DNA of 64,000 nucleotides. Source: Haloferax sp. Atlit-12N. Its GTDB lineage: Archaea; Halobacteriota; Halobacteria; Halobacteriales; Haloferacaceae. The position numbers and the translations under genes are program-made. Below are positions 27,203 to 64,000 of this stretch, one piece after another. The notes under the pieces were generated by a model, which saw only the letters and a list, made by a program, of their open reading frames with translations, was not told where the DNA came from and made no database searches. The first letter of the stretch is position 1. Each line of letters starts with the position of its first letter. The stretch lies in contig NZ_PSYW01000002.1 in assembly GCF_003383095.1 (NCBI RefSeq), positions 620,001 to 684,000 of the forward strand. Reading direction: 5' to 3'.

Positions 27203-27318
27203 CCGATTCTCGAAACTCGTACTTCGGTGAGAGCTAAAGCTCCCGATTTCTTCAGATAATATCACACTTGATAACTAGCGGGACAACGCTTTACGTCGCT
27301 CTCTTGCTACCAAGTGGC

Positions 27319-29646
27319 ATGAAGCTCGCCACGCTGGTTCCGGCGGTGCTCAGGCGGAGCTACCTCCGGAAGTTTCTGTTCGTTATTCTCCTCGTGGCCG
27401 CGGTGATGGGCGGGTTCGGCCTGTACGTCTCGGACGCGGTCGGAACCGAGGTCAGAGCCGACGCCCACAGCGACCTCGAGATGGTCGCCACGTTGGAGGC
27501 CGAGGGACTGTCGAGTTGGATGGACGGCTACGCGCGGACCACCCGGATGCTCTCTGAGTACGAGACCGTCCAGACGGGCGACCCCGACACCATCGACGAG
27601 ACGCTCGAACGCGAGAAGGACACGCTCCCCGACGAGGTGATGGCTATCCACTACGTGAAGCCCTCGAACCGCGACATCGTCCGCAGCACCGACGGCGTGA
27701 TAGAGGCCAAGTCGGTCTCCGACCTCGGCCTGTCGTGGACGACCGGGTCGCTGACGATGTACGACCCCGACGCGGTCGCCATCTCCGAGGTCTACCGCTA
27801 CGCCGGGAGCGAGCGCCTCGCCTTCCTCAGTCCCGTGGCGGGACGGGATGGAGCGGTGATGGTCGTCGTCGACGCGACGAAGCACGCCGAACTGCTGAGC
27901 GAACCGGTCGAAGGCTCACAGACCCGCGTCGTGACCGAAAAGGGCGTCATCGCCTTCGACAAGTACGGCAAGAACGTCCTCACGACGTACCGCGAAGGGT
28001 CCGAGACGCCGGCGCTCGACGCCGCACTCGGCGGTGAGACCGGCGTCATCGAGCGCGAGGGCGACGGGGAGGCCGGGGACGAAGTCGTCGCCTACGCGCC
28101 CGTCTCGGGCACGAACTGGGCGGTTCTCGTGGAAGCGCCGCAGCGTAACGCCTACGCGGTCGCGCAGGTCGTCGAGCGCGACGTCGCCGTCCTCATCGGC
28201 GTGGGCCTCGCCGGCCTCGCGCTGGTCGGGGTCGTCATCGGCCGCAACACGGTGCTGTCGCTCCGGCGACTGCGAACCAAGGCGGCGGCACTCGCTGGCG
28301 GTGACCTCGACGTGGACCTCGAAACCCACAGAGTCGACGAGTTCGGGGCGCTGACGAACGCGTTCGCCGAGATGCGCGATGGGCTACGCGAGCGCATCGA
28401 AGACGCCGAAGACGCCCGACGCGACCTCGCAAGCGCCGCGGACGACTACCGCGAGACGATGGATGCCGCGGCGACGGGCGACCTGACGGTTCGCACGTCG
28501 GTCGAACCGGACGACGAGGCCATGGCGGCCGTCGGCGACGGCATCGACGCGATGCTCGCCGACCTCGAAGCGACTATCGGACAGGTCGCGTCGTTCGCGG
28601 CGACCGTCGACGCGGCGGGCGAGCGCGTTACCGCCGGCACCGAGGAGGTCAGCGCCGCGTCCGAGCGGGTCGAACTGGCGACGGCCGACATCTCCGACGG
28701 CGCGGCCGAGCAGGCGACGCTCCTCTCGGAGGTCTCCTCGGAGATGCAGGACCTCTCGGCGACGGTCGAGGAAGTCGCCGCCTCCGCCGACGAACTCGCT
28801 GACCTCGCGGGTGACGCCGCGGAGCGCGGCGAGGCCGGGCGCGACGCGAGCGCCGCCGTCCACGACGAGATGGCGAACATCGACGCACGCGTCGCGGCCG
28901 CGGCTGAGGGCGTCGAAGCGCTCCGCGACGAGGTGGCGGACATCGGCGAGGTTGTCGACCTCATCGAGGACATCGCCGACCAGACGAACCTGCTCGCGCT
29001 CAACGCGTCTATCGAGGCCGCCCGCGCCGGCGACGCGGGTGCCGGCTTCGCCGTCGTCGCGGACAGCGTGAAGGCGCTCGCCGGCGAGACCGCCGACGCG
29101 ACGACCGAAATCGCGTCGTCCATCGAGTCCGTCGAGGAGACGGCCGACGAGACGGTCGATGCGGTCACGGCCGCCCGAGAGCGCGTCTCGCGAGGGTCCG
29201 AGACGGTCGAAACCGGCGTCACGGCCATCGACGAGGCGGTCGACCGACTGGAGGAAGTCGACCACGGCGTCGCCGCCATCGACGAGGCGACCGCTTCGCA
29301 GGCGTCGGCCGCGCAGTCGGTCGCGCGCCTCGCGGACGAGGCGGCCGAAATCGCCGACGAGACGCGAACCGAGGCGGCCGACGTGGCCGGCGCGGCCCAC
29401 GAACAGAACGACGCGATGGTCACGGTCGCCGGGAAGATGCAGGAGCTATCGTCGACGACCGACGAACTGCGGGCGCTCGCGGACCGGTTCGAAGTACGCG
29501 AGGAAGGAGCGCGCGACGGCGTCGCCGACGCGAGAGAATCCGGAGCCGAGGGCGATGCAACTGCGGCGGATGAGACGGGTTCCGAACCGATTTCGTCGCC
29601 GACGATGGCCGACCTCGCGACCGACGGCTCGGGCGGGGACGGCTGA
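27319..29646 (+). CDS. membrane methyl-accepting chemotaxis transducer (dCache, HAMP, MCP)
   Basis: The 775-residue protein from the ATG at 27319 has a transmembrane helix at about residues 20-37 and a second at about 295-315, bracketing a large extracellular double-Cache-like sensor. HAMP follows ([29 protein letters not shown]). Coiled-coil methylation helices flank the tip [43 protein letters not shown]. It signals to CheA/CheW in the cytoplasm. The ligand is unknown. A gene for a 58-residue membrane protein lies upstream. Confidence 0.95.
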
Positions 29647-35595: not shown

Positions 35596-36783
35596 ATGAA
35601 GCTCGCAATGATCGGATTCGGGCAAGCCGGGGGAAAAGTAGTCGACAAGTTCGTCGAGTACGACCGTGAACGCAACGCTGGAATCGTCCGCGCTGCGGTC
35701 GCTGTAAACTCCGCGAAAGCTGACTTGCTCGGATTGAAGAACATCCCGAAGGACCAGCGCGTCCTCATCGGCCAGTCCCGCGTGAAGGGACACGGCGTCG
35801 GTGCGGACAACGAACTCGGTGCCGAAATCGCCGAGGAGGACATCGACGAGGTGCAGGGTGCCATCGACAGCATCCCTGTCCACGAAGTCGACGCCTTCCT
35901 CGTCGTGTCCGGGCTCGGTGGCGGCACCGGCTCCGGCGGCGCGCCGGTCCTCGCGAAACACCTCAAGCGCATCTACACCGAACCCGTCTACGGCATCGGC
36001 ATCCTGCCGGGGTCCGACGAGGGTGGTATCTACACGCTCAACGCCGCGCGCTCCTTCCAGACGTTCGTCCGCGAGGTCGACAACCTCCTCGTGTTCGACA
36101 ACGACGCCTGGCGGAAGACCGGCGAGTCGGTACAGGGGGGGTACGACGAGATCAACGAGGAGATCGTCAACCGATTCGGCGTGCTGTTCGGCGCCGGCGA
36201 GGTCAAAGACGGACAGGAGGTCGCGGAGTCCGTCGTCGACTCATCGGAGATTATCAACACGCTCGCCGGCGGCGGCGTCTCGACCGTCGGCTACGCCTCC
36301 GAGGGCGTCGAACCGCGGAAGAACAAGGGCGGCGGCCTCCTGTCCCGGCTGACAGGCGGCGACGAGCCCGACGACAACCTCGACACCGCACACACGACCA
36401 ACCGAATCACGAGCCTCGTTCGCAAGGCTGCGCTCGGTCGACTCACGCTCCCGTGTGAGATCGAAGGCGCGGAGCGCGCGCTGCTCGTCCTCGCTGGTCC
36501 GCCGGAGCATCTGAACCGGAAAGGCATAGAGCGCGGGCGGAAGTGGATCGAGGAGCAGACCGGTTCCATGGAAGTTCGCGGCGGCGACTACCCGATTCCG
36601 GGCGCGGGGAAGGTGGCGAGTGTCATCCTCCTGTCGGGCGTGACGAACGTCCCGCGCATCAAGGAGCTACAGCAGGTCGCCATCGAAGCGCAGGATAACA
36701 TCGAAGAGATCCGTCAAGAGAGCGATTCGAATCTGGAGAACCTCATAAACGATGACGAAGACGAACTGGAGTCGCTTTTCTAA
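35596..36783 (+). CDS. cetZ1: tubulin-like cell-shape GTPase CetZ1
   Basis: CetZ1 is a tubulin/FtsZ-superfamily GTPase that assembles filaments and controls rod formation and motility in Haloferax. The 395-residue protein has the GTP-binding loop (residues about 105-114, GLGGGTGSGG), N-terminal AMIGFGQAGGKV and the T7-loop acidic Glu at residue 218 (SSEIINTLAGGG), the position used for the E218A mutant of the H. volcanii protein. The C-terminus is acidic (DDEDELESLF) and could dock partners. It overlaps the next gene by 32 bases. A TATA-like element (CGCTTATGTC) lies about 55 bases upstream of the ATG. Confidence 0.96.
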   Translation: MKLAMIGFGQAGGKVVDKFVEYDRERNAGIVRAAVAVNSAKADLLGLKNIPKDQRVLIGQSRVKGHGVGADNELGAEIAEEDIDEVQGAIDSIPVHEVDAFLVVSGLGGGTGSGGAPVLAKHLKRIYTEPVYGIGILPGSDEGGIYTLNAARSFQTFVREVDNLLVFDNDAWRKTGESVQGGYDEINEEIVNRFGVLFGAGEVKDGQEVAESVVDSSEIINTLAGGGVSTVGYASEGVEPRKNKGGGLLSRLTGGDEPDDNLDTAHTTNRITSLVRKAALGRLTLPCEIEGAERALLVLAGPPEHLNRKGIERGRKWIEEQTGSMEVRGGDYPIPGAGKVASVILLSGVTNVPRIKELQQVAIEAQDNIEEIRQESDSNLENLINDDEDELESLF

Positions 36784-59811: not shown

Positions 59812-60090
59812 TCAGCCCCCCGCGACCGGCGGGAAGACGCTCACGGCGTCCCCATCGTCGAGCGTCGTGGCCATCCCGTCGAGGTGGACCACTTCGCGCC
59901 CGTTTTTCAGCACGTTCACGTGCGGCTTGACCTCGCCGTCTTCGATGAGTCGGCCGGCGAGACCGTCGTACTCCGCTTCCAGCGACTCGAGGACGTCTCC
60001 GACGGTCGCGTCGTCGTCGACCCGCCAGTAGATGGACTTCTGGCCCACCACCTCCCGAAACGTCGCGAAGAAGCGCAATTCGAGTTCCAT
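59812..60090 (-). CDS. samp3: small archaeal modifier protein SAMP3 (MoaD/ThiS fold)
   Basis: The 92-residue beta-grasp protein ends in the Gly-Gly tail VAGG needed for UbaA-dependent activation and isopeptide conjugation. It has ELELRFFATFREVVGQKSI, VGDVLESLEAEYDGL and MATTLDDGDAVSVFPPVAGG, the MoaD-type layout. H. volcanii SAMP3 is also 92 residues, and this locus order agrees. SAMP3 modifies MoaE and other proteins. The operon continues with two short conserved genes. Confidence 0.92.
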   Translation of the reverse strand: MELELRFFATFREVVGQKSIYWRVDDDATVGDVLESLEAEYDGLAGRLIEDGEVKPHVNVLKNGREVVHLDGMATTLDDGDAVSVFPPVAGG

Positions 60091-60366
60091 ACCCCTTGTC
60101 GGCGTCCACGAGACAAAAAGGTACGTCGCGGGCGGCCACAGCGAACGGTTGGCCGGACTTATCGGAGTCACTAATTCAAATAAACTGCAAGATTATCGCC
60201 TGAAAGATCTCAACCAATTAAGTAGAAAGAGCGTCGAAACGTCTCGCTCGACGGGACATTCCAAGCGGCTTCGATACCGACCCGCGCGGGCCGGATAACT
60301 GCGGTCGGTGCGAACCGTTCGACAACGGTCGAATCATCCCCAATTAGTGTCGAACGACCCGGCCGA

Positions 60367-60732
60367 TTACCGTCCCGCGTCGCGGACTTCGATACGACCG
60401 ACGGACTCGACGGTGACGACTAAATCGGCGTAGTCGAATTCGAGCGACGCACCCGTCACGCGCGGTGCTCCGGGCGCGTCGCGGCCGAACAGGGCGTCGA
60501 GGGCGTCGGTGTCTACGTGCTCTGTGAGTGGCGGTAGCTCCGTCGGGTCGCGGCGCGTGTGTTGGTTCACAGCCGCGGCAACCGCCTCAGAGATCGGCTC
60601 GGTACGCTCGCAGTCGTACCAAACTCGTGTCGGTTCGAACTCGTCTCGTACCTGCGTGTCTGATGTGATGATGGTTTCGTCCCCCCAGTATCGTCTGTTC
60701 GATACGTTGGTTCGACGTGTTATATTTCTTGC
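60367..60732 (-). CDS. HalOD1 output-domain protein with unclear start
   Basis: The open frame reaches from 60367 to a stop at 60733-60735. The conserved HalOD1 domain covers about 60367-60630: SEAVAAAVNQHTRRDPTEL, then VDTDALDALF and LEFDYADLVVTVESVGRIEV. HalOD1 proteins are stand-alone or sensor-output modules in haloarchaea. No ATG, GTG or TTG is in frame between 60571 and 60732; the first one is the GTG at 60570, inside the domain. Either initiation is non-standard or the start has mutated. A good TATA box (TATAAA, minus strand) is at about 60761-60766. In H. volcanii the gene here (HVO_2176, from memory) has been linked with disk-shape control (DdfA); this needs checking. Confidence 0.7.
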   Translation of the reverse strand, partial: ARNITRRTNVSNRRYWGDETIITSDTQVRDEFEPTRVWYDCERTEPISEAVAAAVNQHTRRDPTELPPLTEHVDTDALDALFGRDAPGAPRVTGASLEFDYADLVVTVESVGRIEVRDAGR

Positions 60733-60735
60733 GTA

Positions 60736-60933
60736 CTAACGGTATGTCCCTTTGATAGTGTTTATACAATGCAATATTGGGTTGAGAACTGACCGCTAAA
60801 CAGGACCGGGAGCGGCGAGCTATCGGAACATCGAGTCAGCGCGAGAGGGACAAAAGAGGGAGAGAACAGAACAGACGAGAGCGGAGCAGACGGGAACGCG
60901 ACCGCTGTCTCGACACCGCGCGGACTGGCCCGG
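60736..60933. promoter_or_regulatory. spacer with TATA box for the HalOD1 gene
   Basis: Minus-strand TATAAA at about 60761-60766 lies about 30 bases before the beginning of the open HalOD1 frame. The rest is purine-rich (AGAGGGACAAAAGAGGGAGAG near 60845) and holds no gene. The purine run follows the sph3 stop and may aid termination. Confidence 0.5.
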
Positions 60934-62892
60934 TCAGGCCGCGGGTGCCACGTCGGTCCCCCACGTGACGCGCCGGTACGACTCGTCGAGGGCCTGCGCG
61001 TCCTCGGGGAGGAGGGCCGCGACGAGGAACGTCGGATACTGCTCGAAGTGGTCGACCAGCGCAGCGATGCGCTCGGCGTCGATAGCCTCGACGGAGTCGA
61101 GCAGCATGAACGGGACCTCCTCGTACACCTCGTGGACGAGGTAGCCCGCGAGGGCGAACACGAGGCCGACGACCTCGCGCTCGCTCTCGCTGAGGTGGTC
61201 GATGGAGTCCTCGTACACCGCGCCGGAGTCGGACGCGCGGACGATGTGGAGTTCGAACTGGGTCTTTTCGACCTTGCGGCGGCCCTCTCGGACCCGGCGT
61301 TCGACCTGCTCCAGCCAGACGCGCTCGATGTTGTCGTAGCCGAGGAGGTCGAGGACCGTCTCCATCTCCTCGTTGAACGCCTCGACGGCCGCGGTCGTCA
61401 GCGACCGAATTCGGGTTCGCGCATCCTCGAGTTCCTCCGTCACCTGTTCGCGCTCGAGTTCGAGTTCCTCGCGCTCGTCGAACCGGTCGTCGAGCGCGTC
61501 GAGGTCGTCGTGAACCGACGCGAGATCGTCGCGCGTCCGGTCGAGCGTGAACTCGACCTCGTTGAGCTCCTTGTGGAGTTCGATGAGGTCGCTCTCAGCC
61601 TGCCCGCGGAGGTCCGACGCGTCGGCTTCGAGCGATTCGACCCGTTCGGCGAGCTCCTCGCGCTGGTCGGTCAGCGAGTCGATTTGCCCGGTCCGGCGGT
61701 CGAGTTCGTCTTCGAGGCGCTGGAGCTTATCCCGGAGCTTCCGGCGGTCGCGCTGGGCCTGTTCCGCCGCCCGCATCGAGCGTTCGAGTTCGTCGAGTTC
61801 GCGGCGAAGTTCGGCGCGTTCCTCGCGCTGTTCGTCTCTGACCTCGCGGAGGCGGTCGGTCGTCCCCCGAATCTGGTCGCGGTCGACCTCGGTGCCGCAG
61901 GTCCAGCAGGTGATGGTCTCCGAGGAGACGAGTTGGTCCGTCACCGAACCGCCGCCGACCGCGCCCAGCGAGTCCTCGACGAGGTCGGCCTTGCCTTCGA
62001 GCACGTCCTCCGTGTACTGGACGATGGTCTGAAGCTCCGAAATCGTCGAGTTGAGCGACTCGATGCGCGACCGAATCGACTCGATGCGGTCGTTCGCCTC
62101 GCCGCGGTCGACCTCCTCGGCCTCGAACGAATCGAGTTCCGACTGGAGTTCGGAGCGCTCCTCGCGGAGCGATTCGACGCTCTCGCGCTCGCTCTGGAGG
62201 CGGAAGCGGACCGTTTCGAGGTCCGACCGCGCCGACTGCAGGTCCGACAGCACCTCGTCTAACGCGGCTTGGTTCTCGCGTTGCGATTCGACCGTCTGGT
62301 CTTCGGCCTCGATTTCGGCTTCGAGATCGTCGCGCTCGGCTTCGAGGTCCTCGATTTCGGCTTCGAGATCGTCGCGCTTCGATTCGAGCGACCGGCGGTC
62401 GGCCTCGAGCGAGTCGAGCGAGTCGAGTTGTGTTTCTACCTGCGTCCGTCGGGTCTGGAGGCGCTCGATTTCTGCCTCGATGGCGTCGGTGTCGACCGGT
62501 GCCATGATGACGTCGTGGAGGTCGCGCTCCGAGACGACGGCCCGGCGCGCCTCGTTCGACCCGAGGAGGAACGCAAAGCGGTCCGCAGTCGTCGTATCCC
62601 GGAGGTACGGCGTGCCGTCGGTCGTGACCGACCCGTTCTCACGGGAGAAGACGCGGGTGTACGTCCGGCCGTCCAGTTCGAGTTCGACCGACCCCTCGTC
62701 GGCGTCTCCCTTGAGACTGGCCGCGTCGCTCCCGAACGCGCCCATAAGCGCGCGCAGGAATGACGTTCGGTTCGTCGCGTTGCGCCCGGTCAGAACGGTG
62801 ACGCCGGGTTCGAGCCCGACGGTTCGTTCGTCGATACCACCGATGTTTCGTATACGGACAGTCGCCGTCTGAAGTGCCTCTGAATCGTTCAT
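60934..62892 (-). CDS. sph3: archaea-specific SMC-related protein Sph3
   Basis: The 652-residue protein has an N-terminal ATPase half with a degenerate Walker A, GRNATNRTS at 36-44 (Arg where Lys is expected), two long coiled coils from about 140 to 500 rich in Glu, Arg and Leu, a central Cys pair CWTC near residue 328 like a Rad50 hook, a signature LSESEREVVGLVFALAGYL and Walker B-like FMLLDSVEAID. The usual catalytic Glu after Walker B is Ser. Sph3 with RdfA is needed for rods in H. volcanii (from memory). Here it follows the broken rdfA by 34 bases. Confidence 0.93.
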   Translation of the reverse strand: MNDSEALQTATVRIRNIGGIDERTVGLEPGVTVLTGRNATNRTSFLRALMGAFGSDAASLKGDADEGSVELELDGRTYTRVFSRENGSVTTDGTPYLRDTTTADRFAFLLGSNEARRAVVSERDLHDVIMAPVDTDAIEAEIERLQTRRTQVETQLDSLDSLEADRRSLESKRDDLEAEIEDLEAERDDLEAEIEAEDQTVESQRENQAALDEVLSDLQSARSDLETVRFRLQSERESVESLREERSELQSELDSFEAEEVDRGEANDRIESIRSRIESLNSTISELQTIVQYTEDVLEGKADLVEDSLGAVGGGSVTDQLVSSETITCWTCGTEVDRDQIRGTTDRLREVRDEQREERAELRRELDELERSMRAAEQAQRDRRKLRDKLQRLEDELDRRTGQIDSLTDQREELAERVESLEADASDLRGQAESDLIELHKELNEVEFTLDRTRDDLASVHDDLDALDDRFDEREELELEREQVTEELEDARTRIRSLTTAAVEAFNEEMETVLDLLGYDNIERVWLEQVERRVREGRRKVEKTQFELHIVRASDSGAVYEDSIDHLSESEREVVGLVFALAGYLVHEVYEEVPFMLLDSVEAIDAERIAALVDHFEQYPTFLVAALLPEDAQALDESYRRVTWGTDVAPAA

Positions 62893-62926
62893 GTTTCGGA
62901 TGTGGTGTGTTGGTGAGCCCGAATCG

Positions 62927-63574
62927 CTACTCGTTTCTCTCCTGTTCGCAGTCGCAGTGCCCGGAGTTGAGCAGCGTCGTCGGGGTCATTCGAGTGTCAC
63001 AGTCTGTGCAGGTGACACGGATGTCTACTTCGACCTCGTAGGTGCCGATGAAGACCGCTTCGGCCTTCACTAAACGGTCGATAACATCGATAGTCACCGT
63101 CCGCAGTCGGGATCGGAGCTTCCGAATCGTCGCGAGTCCCGACTCGGTCGCGCTCTGTCCGTCTTCGTCGTCGTCTTCACGTTCGACGTTTCGGTGTCGC
63201 TTGAGGTAGTTATACACCGACTAGTAGGAGATGATATCCGACTCCAACTGGTCGATGTCGACGCCGCGCTCGCGGAGCGTGTTCCGCGCGTCGGTGCGAC
63301 TCCCCGCAGTCACGTCGTCGCTGGTCAGGAGTCGGTAGAAGTTCTCCGCCTCCCCGTCGAGGACGTGCGCGCCGGCCTGGTCCAGCGCGGCCCGGATGAG
63401 TCGCTTGTTCACGTCCCCTTCGAGTTCGCGGAGGCTCCGTTGCTCGCGACCCTCGCCGAGCCACGCATCGACGAGGTCGTCACCGAGGCCATCGAGACCG
63501 TACCGGTCTGCGATGCGCTCTATCTTCGGACCTCGGCCGCCGCGGCGGGAAACCGTGCTTCCAGAATCTCGCAT
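62927..63574 (-). pseudogene. rdfA: rod-determining factor RdfA, interrupted by an in-frame TAG
   Basis: Reading from the ATG at 63574, codon 118 (63221-63223) is TAG, but the same frame continues without shift as SVYNYLKRHRN, to a stop at 62927-62929. The first part (117 residues) has IERIADRYGLDGLGDDLVDAWLG, VNKRLIRAALDQAG, EAENFYRLLTSDDVTAGSRT. The second part has the family's zinc end, CTDCDTRMTPTTLLNSGHCDC. Together they match the RdfA family, where Gln normally sits where TAG is (CAG to TAG). RdfA is required for rod formation in H. volcanii (from memory). sph3 follows 34 bases on. Confidence 0.88.
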
Positions 63575-63765
63575 TGTGACCTCGTTACCCGGACCTTAGC
63601 GTGCAGTACCCTAAACGTTACTTATGGATTATCAGAGATGATAAAACTAGAACACAAACGAGTTACACGACATACGCCGACGTTCTTACGGATTCCGGGG
63701 AATAAATGAGAGATATCAGTAAACTAGAGAACTACCCACCGCGAGACGGCGGTCGGTTTTTGTCA
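63575..63765. promoter_or_regulatory. AT-rich spacer upstream of rdfA
   Basis: This 191-base spacer separates two minus-strand genes. It is AT-rich compared with the genes around it, with several TTATGGATTAT and TAAACT stretches. On the minus strand TTTAGGGTA (about 63613-63621) could serve as a TATA box for rdfA, but it is 40-45 bases from the ATG. No coding frame is supported. Confidence 0.45.
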
Positions 63766-64000
63766 TTATTCCTCACGAACGGTCACCCAGAGGTGGACCT
63801 CCCGGTAAGCGTTATCAACCGTCGGCGACGCCGGCGGCGCGCCCTCGTAGAGGAGGTACGTCAGCCGCAGGCGCTCGCCCGTCATCGTCGGGCGGACCTC
63901 GTGCGGTTCGTGCCACGTCTCGTTGTGTTCGAGTCGGGGCGTGAACGTCCGAAGTTGCTCGGACTCCAGTACGGTCGTCGAGTTGTTCGACACCTCGACG
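63766..64000 (-). CDS. DUF1616-like protein, C-terminal part (cut by window)
   Basis: The frame is open to the right edge, so the gene begins beyond the window. The visible 77 residues contain RTFTPRLEHNETWHEPHEVRPTMTGERLRLTYLLYEG and DNAYREVHLWVTVREE, which match the C-terminal end of DUF1616 membrane proteins of haloarchaea. The N-terminal membrane helices would lie outside the window. Function unknown. Confidence 0.78.
   Translation of the reverse strand, partial: VEVSNNSTTVLESEQLRTFTPRLEHNETWHEPHEVRPTMTGERLRLTYLLYEGAPPASPTVDNAYREVHLWVTVREE

Follow-up and report, generated by a model that had tools for sequence, protein, structure and literature searches.

A probable natural nonsense allele of the cell-shape gene rdfA in Haloferax sp. 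Atlit-12N

In Haloferax sp. Atlit-12N the rdfA gene is interrupted by an internal TAG at codon 118 (63223-63221), which, as judged from the sequence, is probably a nonsense mutation that arose recently in nature and likely abolishes the function of RdfA. The gene lies on the minus strand from 63574 to 62927 of the window (the whole stretch of DNA that was analysed, 64,000 nucleotides of contig NZ_PSYW01000002.1) and is read as 117 codons, the TAG, 97 codons and a terminal TAG, in a single frame throughout and with no indel. After the premature TAG comes one TCG codon and then a GTG at 63217-63215, i.e. 3 nt on. An earlier note on this DNA had described the split by a single in-frame TAG at codon 118, without indel, and the GTG three bases after it; its coordinates proved exact. 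The following features are referred to.

63221..63574, minus strand: 5' part of rdfA, the premature TAG with the 117 codons before it; PF21811 match (E 5e-38), predicted six-helix domain (pLDDT 86.5)
63221..63223, minus strand: premature in-frame TAG, codon 118; Gln in 14/14 other Haloferax genomes
63215..63217, minus strand: GTG, the Val120 codon, a possible reinitiation codon 3 nt past the TAG; upstream region without Shine-Dalgarno pairing
62927..63217, minus strand: 3' part of rdfA, a 96-codon frame from the GTG, with a long helix (138-169 as modelled for a relative) and the CxxC...CxC end; PF21811 match (E 2.1e-24), invariant Cys columns
60934..62892, minus strand: sph3, archaea-specific SMC-related protein (ASRP), intact; NF045487 match (E 5.6e-204), start 34 nt past the rdfA end
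60367..60735, minus strand: ddfA, open frame with a HalOD1 domain (60603-60382); PF18545 match (E 4.2e-20)
63630..63643, no strand assigned: TATCA-N4-TGATA palindrome upstream of rdfA; equals the published CsmR motif (PMC13286277)

Each part of the gene by itself exceeds the gathering cut-off (27 bits) of the Pfam family PF21811 RdfA: the N part was matched with E 5e-38 and 131.3 bits over positions 1-102 of the 195-position profile, the C part with E 2.1e-24 and 86.9 bits over positions 105-195 of 195, and the two matches adjoin almost gap-free. The four zinc-type cysteines (CxxC...CxC end) are present in the C half, in columns that are invariant in 29 aligned relatives, which bears out the earlier statement that the downstream half keeps the conserved zinc end. 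The gene order rdfA-sph3-ddfA equals that in H. volcanii, as given in the available part of PMC10869688, and agrees, as do the PF21811 matches of both halves, with the name rdfA that the gene had been given. The same part of that paper reports an SMC-like neighbour gene for 42/54 RdfA family members. The PF21811 match, the C-terminal cysteines and the neighbouring SMC-like gene are thus all those of an RdfA family member, but the TAG at codon 118 interrupts what should be one continuous frame of ~200 codons, and the gene was classed as a defective rdfA allele instead of a functional RdfA.

For comparison, orthologs were collected from a set of 15 Haloferax genomes (Atlit-12N among them, 14 others compared). 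The orthologous rdfA was open in 14/14, with an internal stop in 0/14; codon 118 specified glutamine in all, as CAG in 12 and as the synonymous codon in 2, in keeping with the earlier proposal that CAG to TAG is the simplest change. Nine named Haloferax records, probably the same species as some of the 14, agree on an open rdfA with Gln. The alignment with other Haloferax that the earlier note had called for thus gave an open frame and Gln in every case, and a gene that is naturally two proteins, which it had named among the findings that would refute its reading, was not found in the 14 genomes. More widely, Gln118 did not vary among 29 aligned RdfA proteins with identities as low as 40%. These were 29 of 32 database proteins, with P0003 and P0009 (incomplete) and P0032 (fragment) left out; P0003 and P0009 also have Gln118, and P0032 begins after that position. 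Among the RdfA paralog rows, Gln occupied the position in 15/16, and Arg in one (L003). An RdfA match was obtained in 141/170 genomes of the family, and an internal stop was absent from all 150 best-scoring RdfA-family matches listed from the search of the 170 genomes, a list that is ordered by score and so biased to intact genes, and that does not include the Atlit-12N gene. Seven more distant RdfA paralog genes had been flagged with a stop and suspected of the same lesion; they were rejected, as the flagged stop was the gene's own terminal stop in 7/7.

Protein searches found no database record of a truncated or C-only form of the Atlit-12N rdfA sequence. Separately, P0032, encoded on a 1195-base contig, is a relative of RdfA in a degraded state, with 69% identity to the C half; its predicted protein, beginning MYNYLKRHRNV, starts at the equivalent valine codon and lacks two of the zinc cysteines. 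By its sequence it is possibly a second interrupted rdfA in nature.

The main rival to a nonsense allele is a base-call or assembly error at codon 118 in a living strain with an intact rdfA, which is considered unlikely, yet a serious candidate. It was examined by reading frames of the sister genome, H. gibbonsii (G004), in the Atlit-12N genome (160 frames, 51,534 codons; long aligned blocks 86-96% identical). Frames with <6 differences, <75% identity, <85% coverage or a third-position fraction <0.6 had been dropped beforehand, and the comparison covers the part of one contig that matches a 311 kb H. gibbonsii contig, so that the counts are not counts of all genes. An internal stop was found in 7/160 frames (11/154 in the reverse comparison), and rdfA was the only mid-gene case with strong coding signal (third-position fraction 0.86; 18 synonymous to 3 other differences, the stop counted in the 3). 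In four of the 7 the stop fell among the first 28 codons (at 187182, 194696, 261769 and 299015 of the H. gibbonsii contig), which by sequence probably reflects start choice; two of these, 194696 and 261769, had strong coding signal. The signal was weak at 60428 (third-position fraction 0.60; 26 synonymous and 19 missense differences) and at 305577 (0.61; 20 synonymous and 21 missense). Judged by these frames, the compared stretch is not generally error-ridden. Since 66/1926 of the single changes in rdfA (~3.4%) make a stop, an error rate that yields one should leave many other lesions, and against the error reading no other convincing mid-gene stop was seen in the 160 frames; in addition, the genome is 99.89% complete and the window lies within a 1.23 Mb contig. 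In its favour, just one substitution is needed, the TAG occurs in no other genome (0/14 Haloferax), the assembly is a draft of 104 contigs, and the substitution creates CTAG, which is under-represented here (0.35 of expectation). The frame data thus argue against a poor assembly, though they appear compatible with one wrong base at codon 118. As to word usage in 344 kb of the Atlit-12N genome, CTAG, created by the stop at 63221-63224, occurs at 0.35 times and GATC at 0.22 times the expected frequency.

The substitutions within rdfA were counted on both sides of the stop. Against H. gibbonsii the N part had 12 synonymous and 2 missense differences and the C part 6 and 0, with one extra Asp codon in the C part; the C part had 6 synonymous and 3 missense differences against Q22, and 8 and 4 against H. 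prahovense. At sites where H. gibbonsii, Q22 and H. prahovense agree and Atlit-12N differs, there were 8 synonymous, 0 missense and 1 nonsense differences and 1 codon-length difference. This lack of a missense excess, seen in both halves, means that the stop is recent, or false, or that the pieces still work. Under the preferred reading of a nonsense allele its origin is probably recent, given that the two halves both still appear to be under constraint. Three points stand against this reading: a base-call error fits the same data, the scarcity of missense changes is also expected under continued function, and the stop falls between two predicted helices, so that in the structural model the pieces could in principle reassemble. 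The age of the stop is bounded loosely, as most of the counted substitutions may predate it.

With a real TAG, translation of rdfA would end after 117 residues, and the product would keep the predicted six-helix N domain and lose the next helix, the long helix and the zinc end. In an AlphaFold2 model of the intact H. prahovense RdfA (mean pLDDT 83.1, pTM 0.56) the stop position falls where helix 117-127 begins; helix 107-113 precedes it, and the long helix 138-169 and the zinc end follow. Predicted alone, the 117-residue product kept its six helices (pLDDT 86.5, pTM 0.77). The likely product, by these models, would be a folded yet incomplete RdfA fragment. Sph3 would still be translated from its own start, because that start follows the end of rdfA by 34 nt and mRNA in H. 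volcanii is reported to be stable even when untranslated (PMC6728339, in the part available). In the available text of PMC10869688, deletion of rdfA or sph3 in H. volcanii leaves disks only, without motility; by analogy, RdfA loss is predicted to lock Atlit-12N cells as non-motile disks, and the cell shape of the strain may be altered. Two further RdfA-family genes, both without internal stop, were found in the genome; they are probably no replacement, because H. volcanii, with four members in total, still loses rods on rdfA deletion.

The earlier note had also proposed that the two halves may be made separately. In this version ribosomes end at the TAG and restart at the GTG 3 nt on, giving a six-helix N piece and a zinc C piece that reassemble and work in concert; a point mutation would have turned rdfA into a working two-gene pair, a newborn natural split protein formed by gene fission in an archaeon. 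This is held to be improbable. The distance allows it: +3 nt lies within the -8 to +6 nt counted as efficient termination-reinitiation in H. volcanii (PMC10666635, as far as the available part goes), and the usual Shine-Dalgarno motif, absent here, is not essential in that species according to the sections at hand of PMC6728339. The break separates predicted helix 6 from helix 7, the N piece is predicted to fold by itself with the scores given above, and the C half differs from that of H. gibbonsii by no amino-acid replacement, the extra Asp codon aside. The sequence itself shows no sign of adaptation to a restart. The GTG is an old valine codon (Val120 in 10/14 relatives), hence not gained along with the stop; pairing with a Shine-Dalgarno site before it is absent (-3.3 kcal/mol, weaker than the random 25-mer median of -5.0); and no trace of selection for reinitiation at the GTG was seen in the sequence. 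In the same sections of PMC6728339, Shine-Dalgarno removal lowered reinitiation in 6/7 H. volcanii pairs, by up to ~80%. The available text of PMC10666635 describes a steep dependence on distance in H. volcanii and refers to a study in which reinitiation was tenfold lower at +3 nt than at a -4 overlap. Furthermore, helix 7 would be incomplete in the C piece, its start with the invariant Gln being missing, the gene is split in 0/14 relatives, and the C piece is absent from the protein databases searched.

Readthrough of the TAG at a useful rate, giving full-length RdfA, is favoured by the open frame on both sides of the stop and the conserved C half. Against it, no CUA anticodon was found among the tRNA genes recognised by ARAGORN, which cover 48/50 tRNA matches, an Rfam match is absent in 60000-64000, the stop is common to 0/14 relatives, and TAG also terminates rdfA itself in Atlit-12N and in the 8 orthologs read. 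Readthrough is less likely than synthesis in two pieces, and very improbable in itself.

The nonsense allele preferred here sits in a locus that is otherwise kept. The TATCA-N4-TGATA palindrome upstream of rdfA was conserved in 9/9 aligned Haloferax, and the motif had 10 sites in the 4.0 Mb genome as opposed to 2 for a reversed control. By its sequence it equals the motif in the available part of PMC13286277, where deleting the regulator CsmR increases the transcripts of rdfA and sph3 early in growth; the predicted CsmR-type operator of rdfA is intact. A second exact CsmR-type palindrome lies at 27260-27273, at the 5' end of a 792-codon frame (27268-29646, plus strand) that by eye resembles a methyl-accepting transducer; the true start of this frame is probably later, because the listed TTG start falls within the palindrome. 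Four of the 10 palindromes of the genome are grouped within 8 kb beside archaellin-family genes (G000:C1:261167-269013).

Some observations concern the neighbouring genes. The role of Sph3 differs between papers, as far as their available parts go: its deletion gives disk-only cells in PMC10869688, whereas Sph3 promotes the plate form in PMC13286277. Sph3 (60934-62892, minus strand) also matches PADLOC LmuB (Lamassu SMC-like) profiles, with a best E of 1.8e-18, which may perhaps be just shared SMC/Rad50 coiled-coil and ATPase similarity. The ddfA frame (60367-60735, minus strand) has a conserved N-terminal extension whose head lacks ATG, GTG or TTG, like the reported H. volcanii ddfA. A G run (60686-60681 here) and an upstream block near ACATACCGNTAGTACGCAAGAAATATAACA recur across 9 aligned Haloferax loci, and by eye a standard start is absent at the G run in 8/9; in H. 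mucosum a GTG stands directly behind the G run and, from the sequence, may be the true ddfA start.

The tubulin-family gene at 35596-36783 is intact and closely alike PDB 4b46 over its full length (CetZ1-type); the entry title is FtsZ, and we take the protein to be H. volcanii CetZ1. Four archaellin-family and 6 tubulin-family matches were found in the Atlit-12N genome, all without stops. The genome thus retains at least the archaellin, CetZ1-type and sph3 parts of the swimming-rod equipment while the rod switch is cut. Provided that the TAG is genuine, Atlit-12N has naturally lost a known archaeal cell-shape switch, with the archaellin, CetZ1-type and sph3 genes and the rdfA operator motif kept. 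The strain would then allow a direct test, in a Haloferax other than H. volcanii, of the need for RdfA in rods and swimming, and would lend itself to assaying if a single-base change is enough to produce a termination-reinitiation pair. Nonsense alleles of rdfA from nature were not reported in the titles and abstract openings of the literature on RdfA, rod-determining factor and Haloferax shape. The kind of event is ordinary and no new mechanism is shown, so that the interest is modest; it is the gene that makes a test worthwhile.

Among known systems the closest is rdfA of H. volcanii (HVO_2174, rod-determining factor A), which belongs to the same family PF21811 and has the same neighbours, sph3 and the HalOD1 gene (ddfA); the Atlit-12N gene is 89% identical to the protein cluster named H. 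volcanii RdfA. The H. volcanii gene is uninterrupted, and strains deleted for it form only disks and do not swim in the available part of PMC10869688, whereas the gene of Atlit-12N is interrupted at codon 118. The termination-reinitiation pairs of H. volcanii have a stop and a start in proximity like the 3 nt spacing found here; unlike them, the present case is one mutation inside one gene, has no Shine-Dalgarno motif, and its coupling is hypothetical. With the engineered rdfA deletion strains of H. volcanii it shares the expected loss of RdfA and an sph3 left in place; unlike those deletions, it would be a natural point mutation to a stop, with the first 117 codons of the gene retained.
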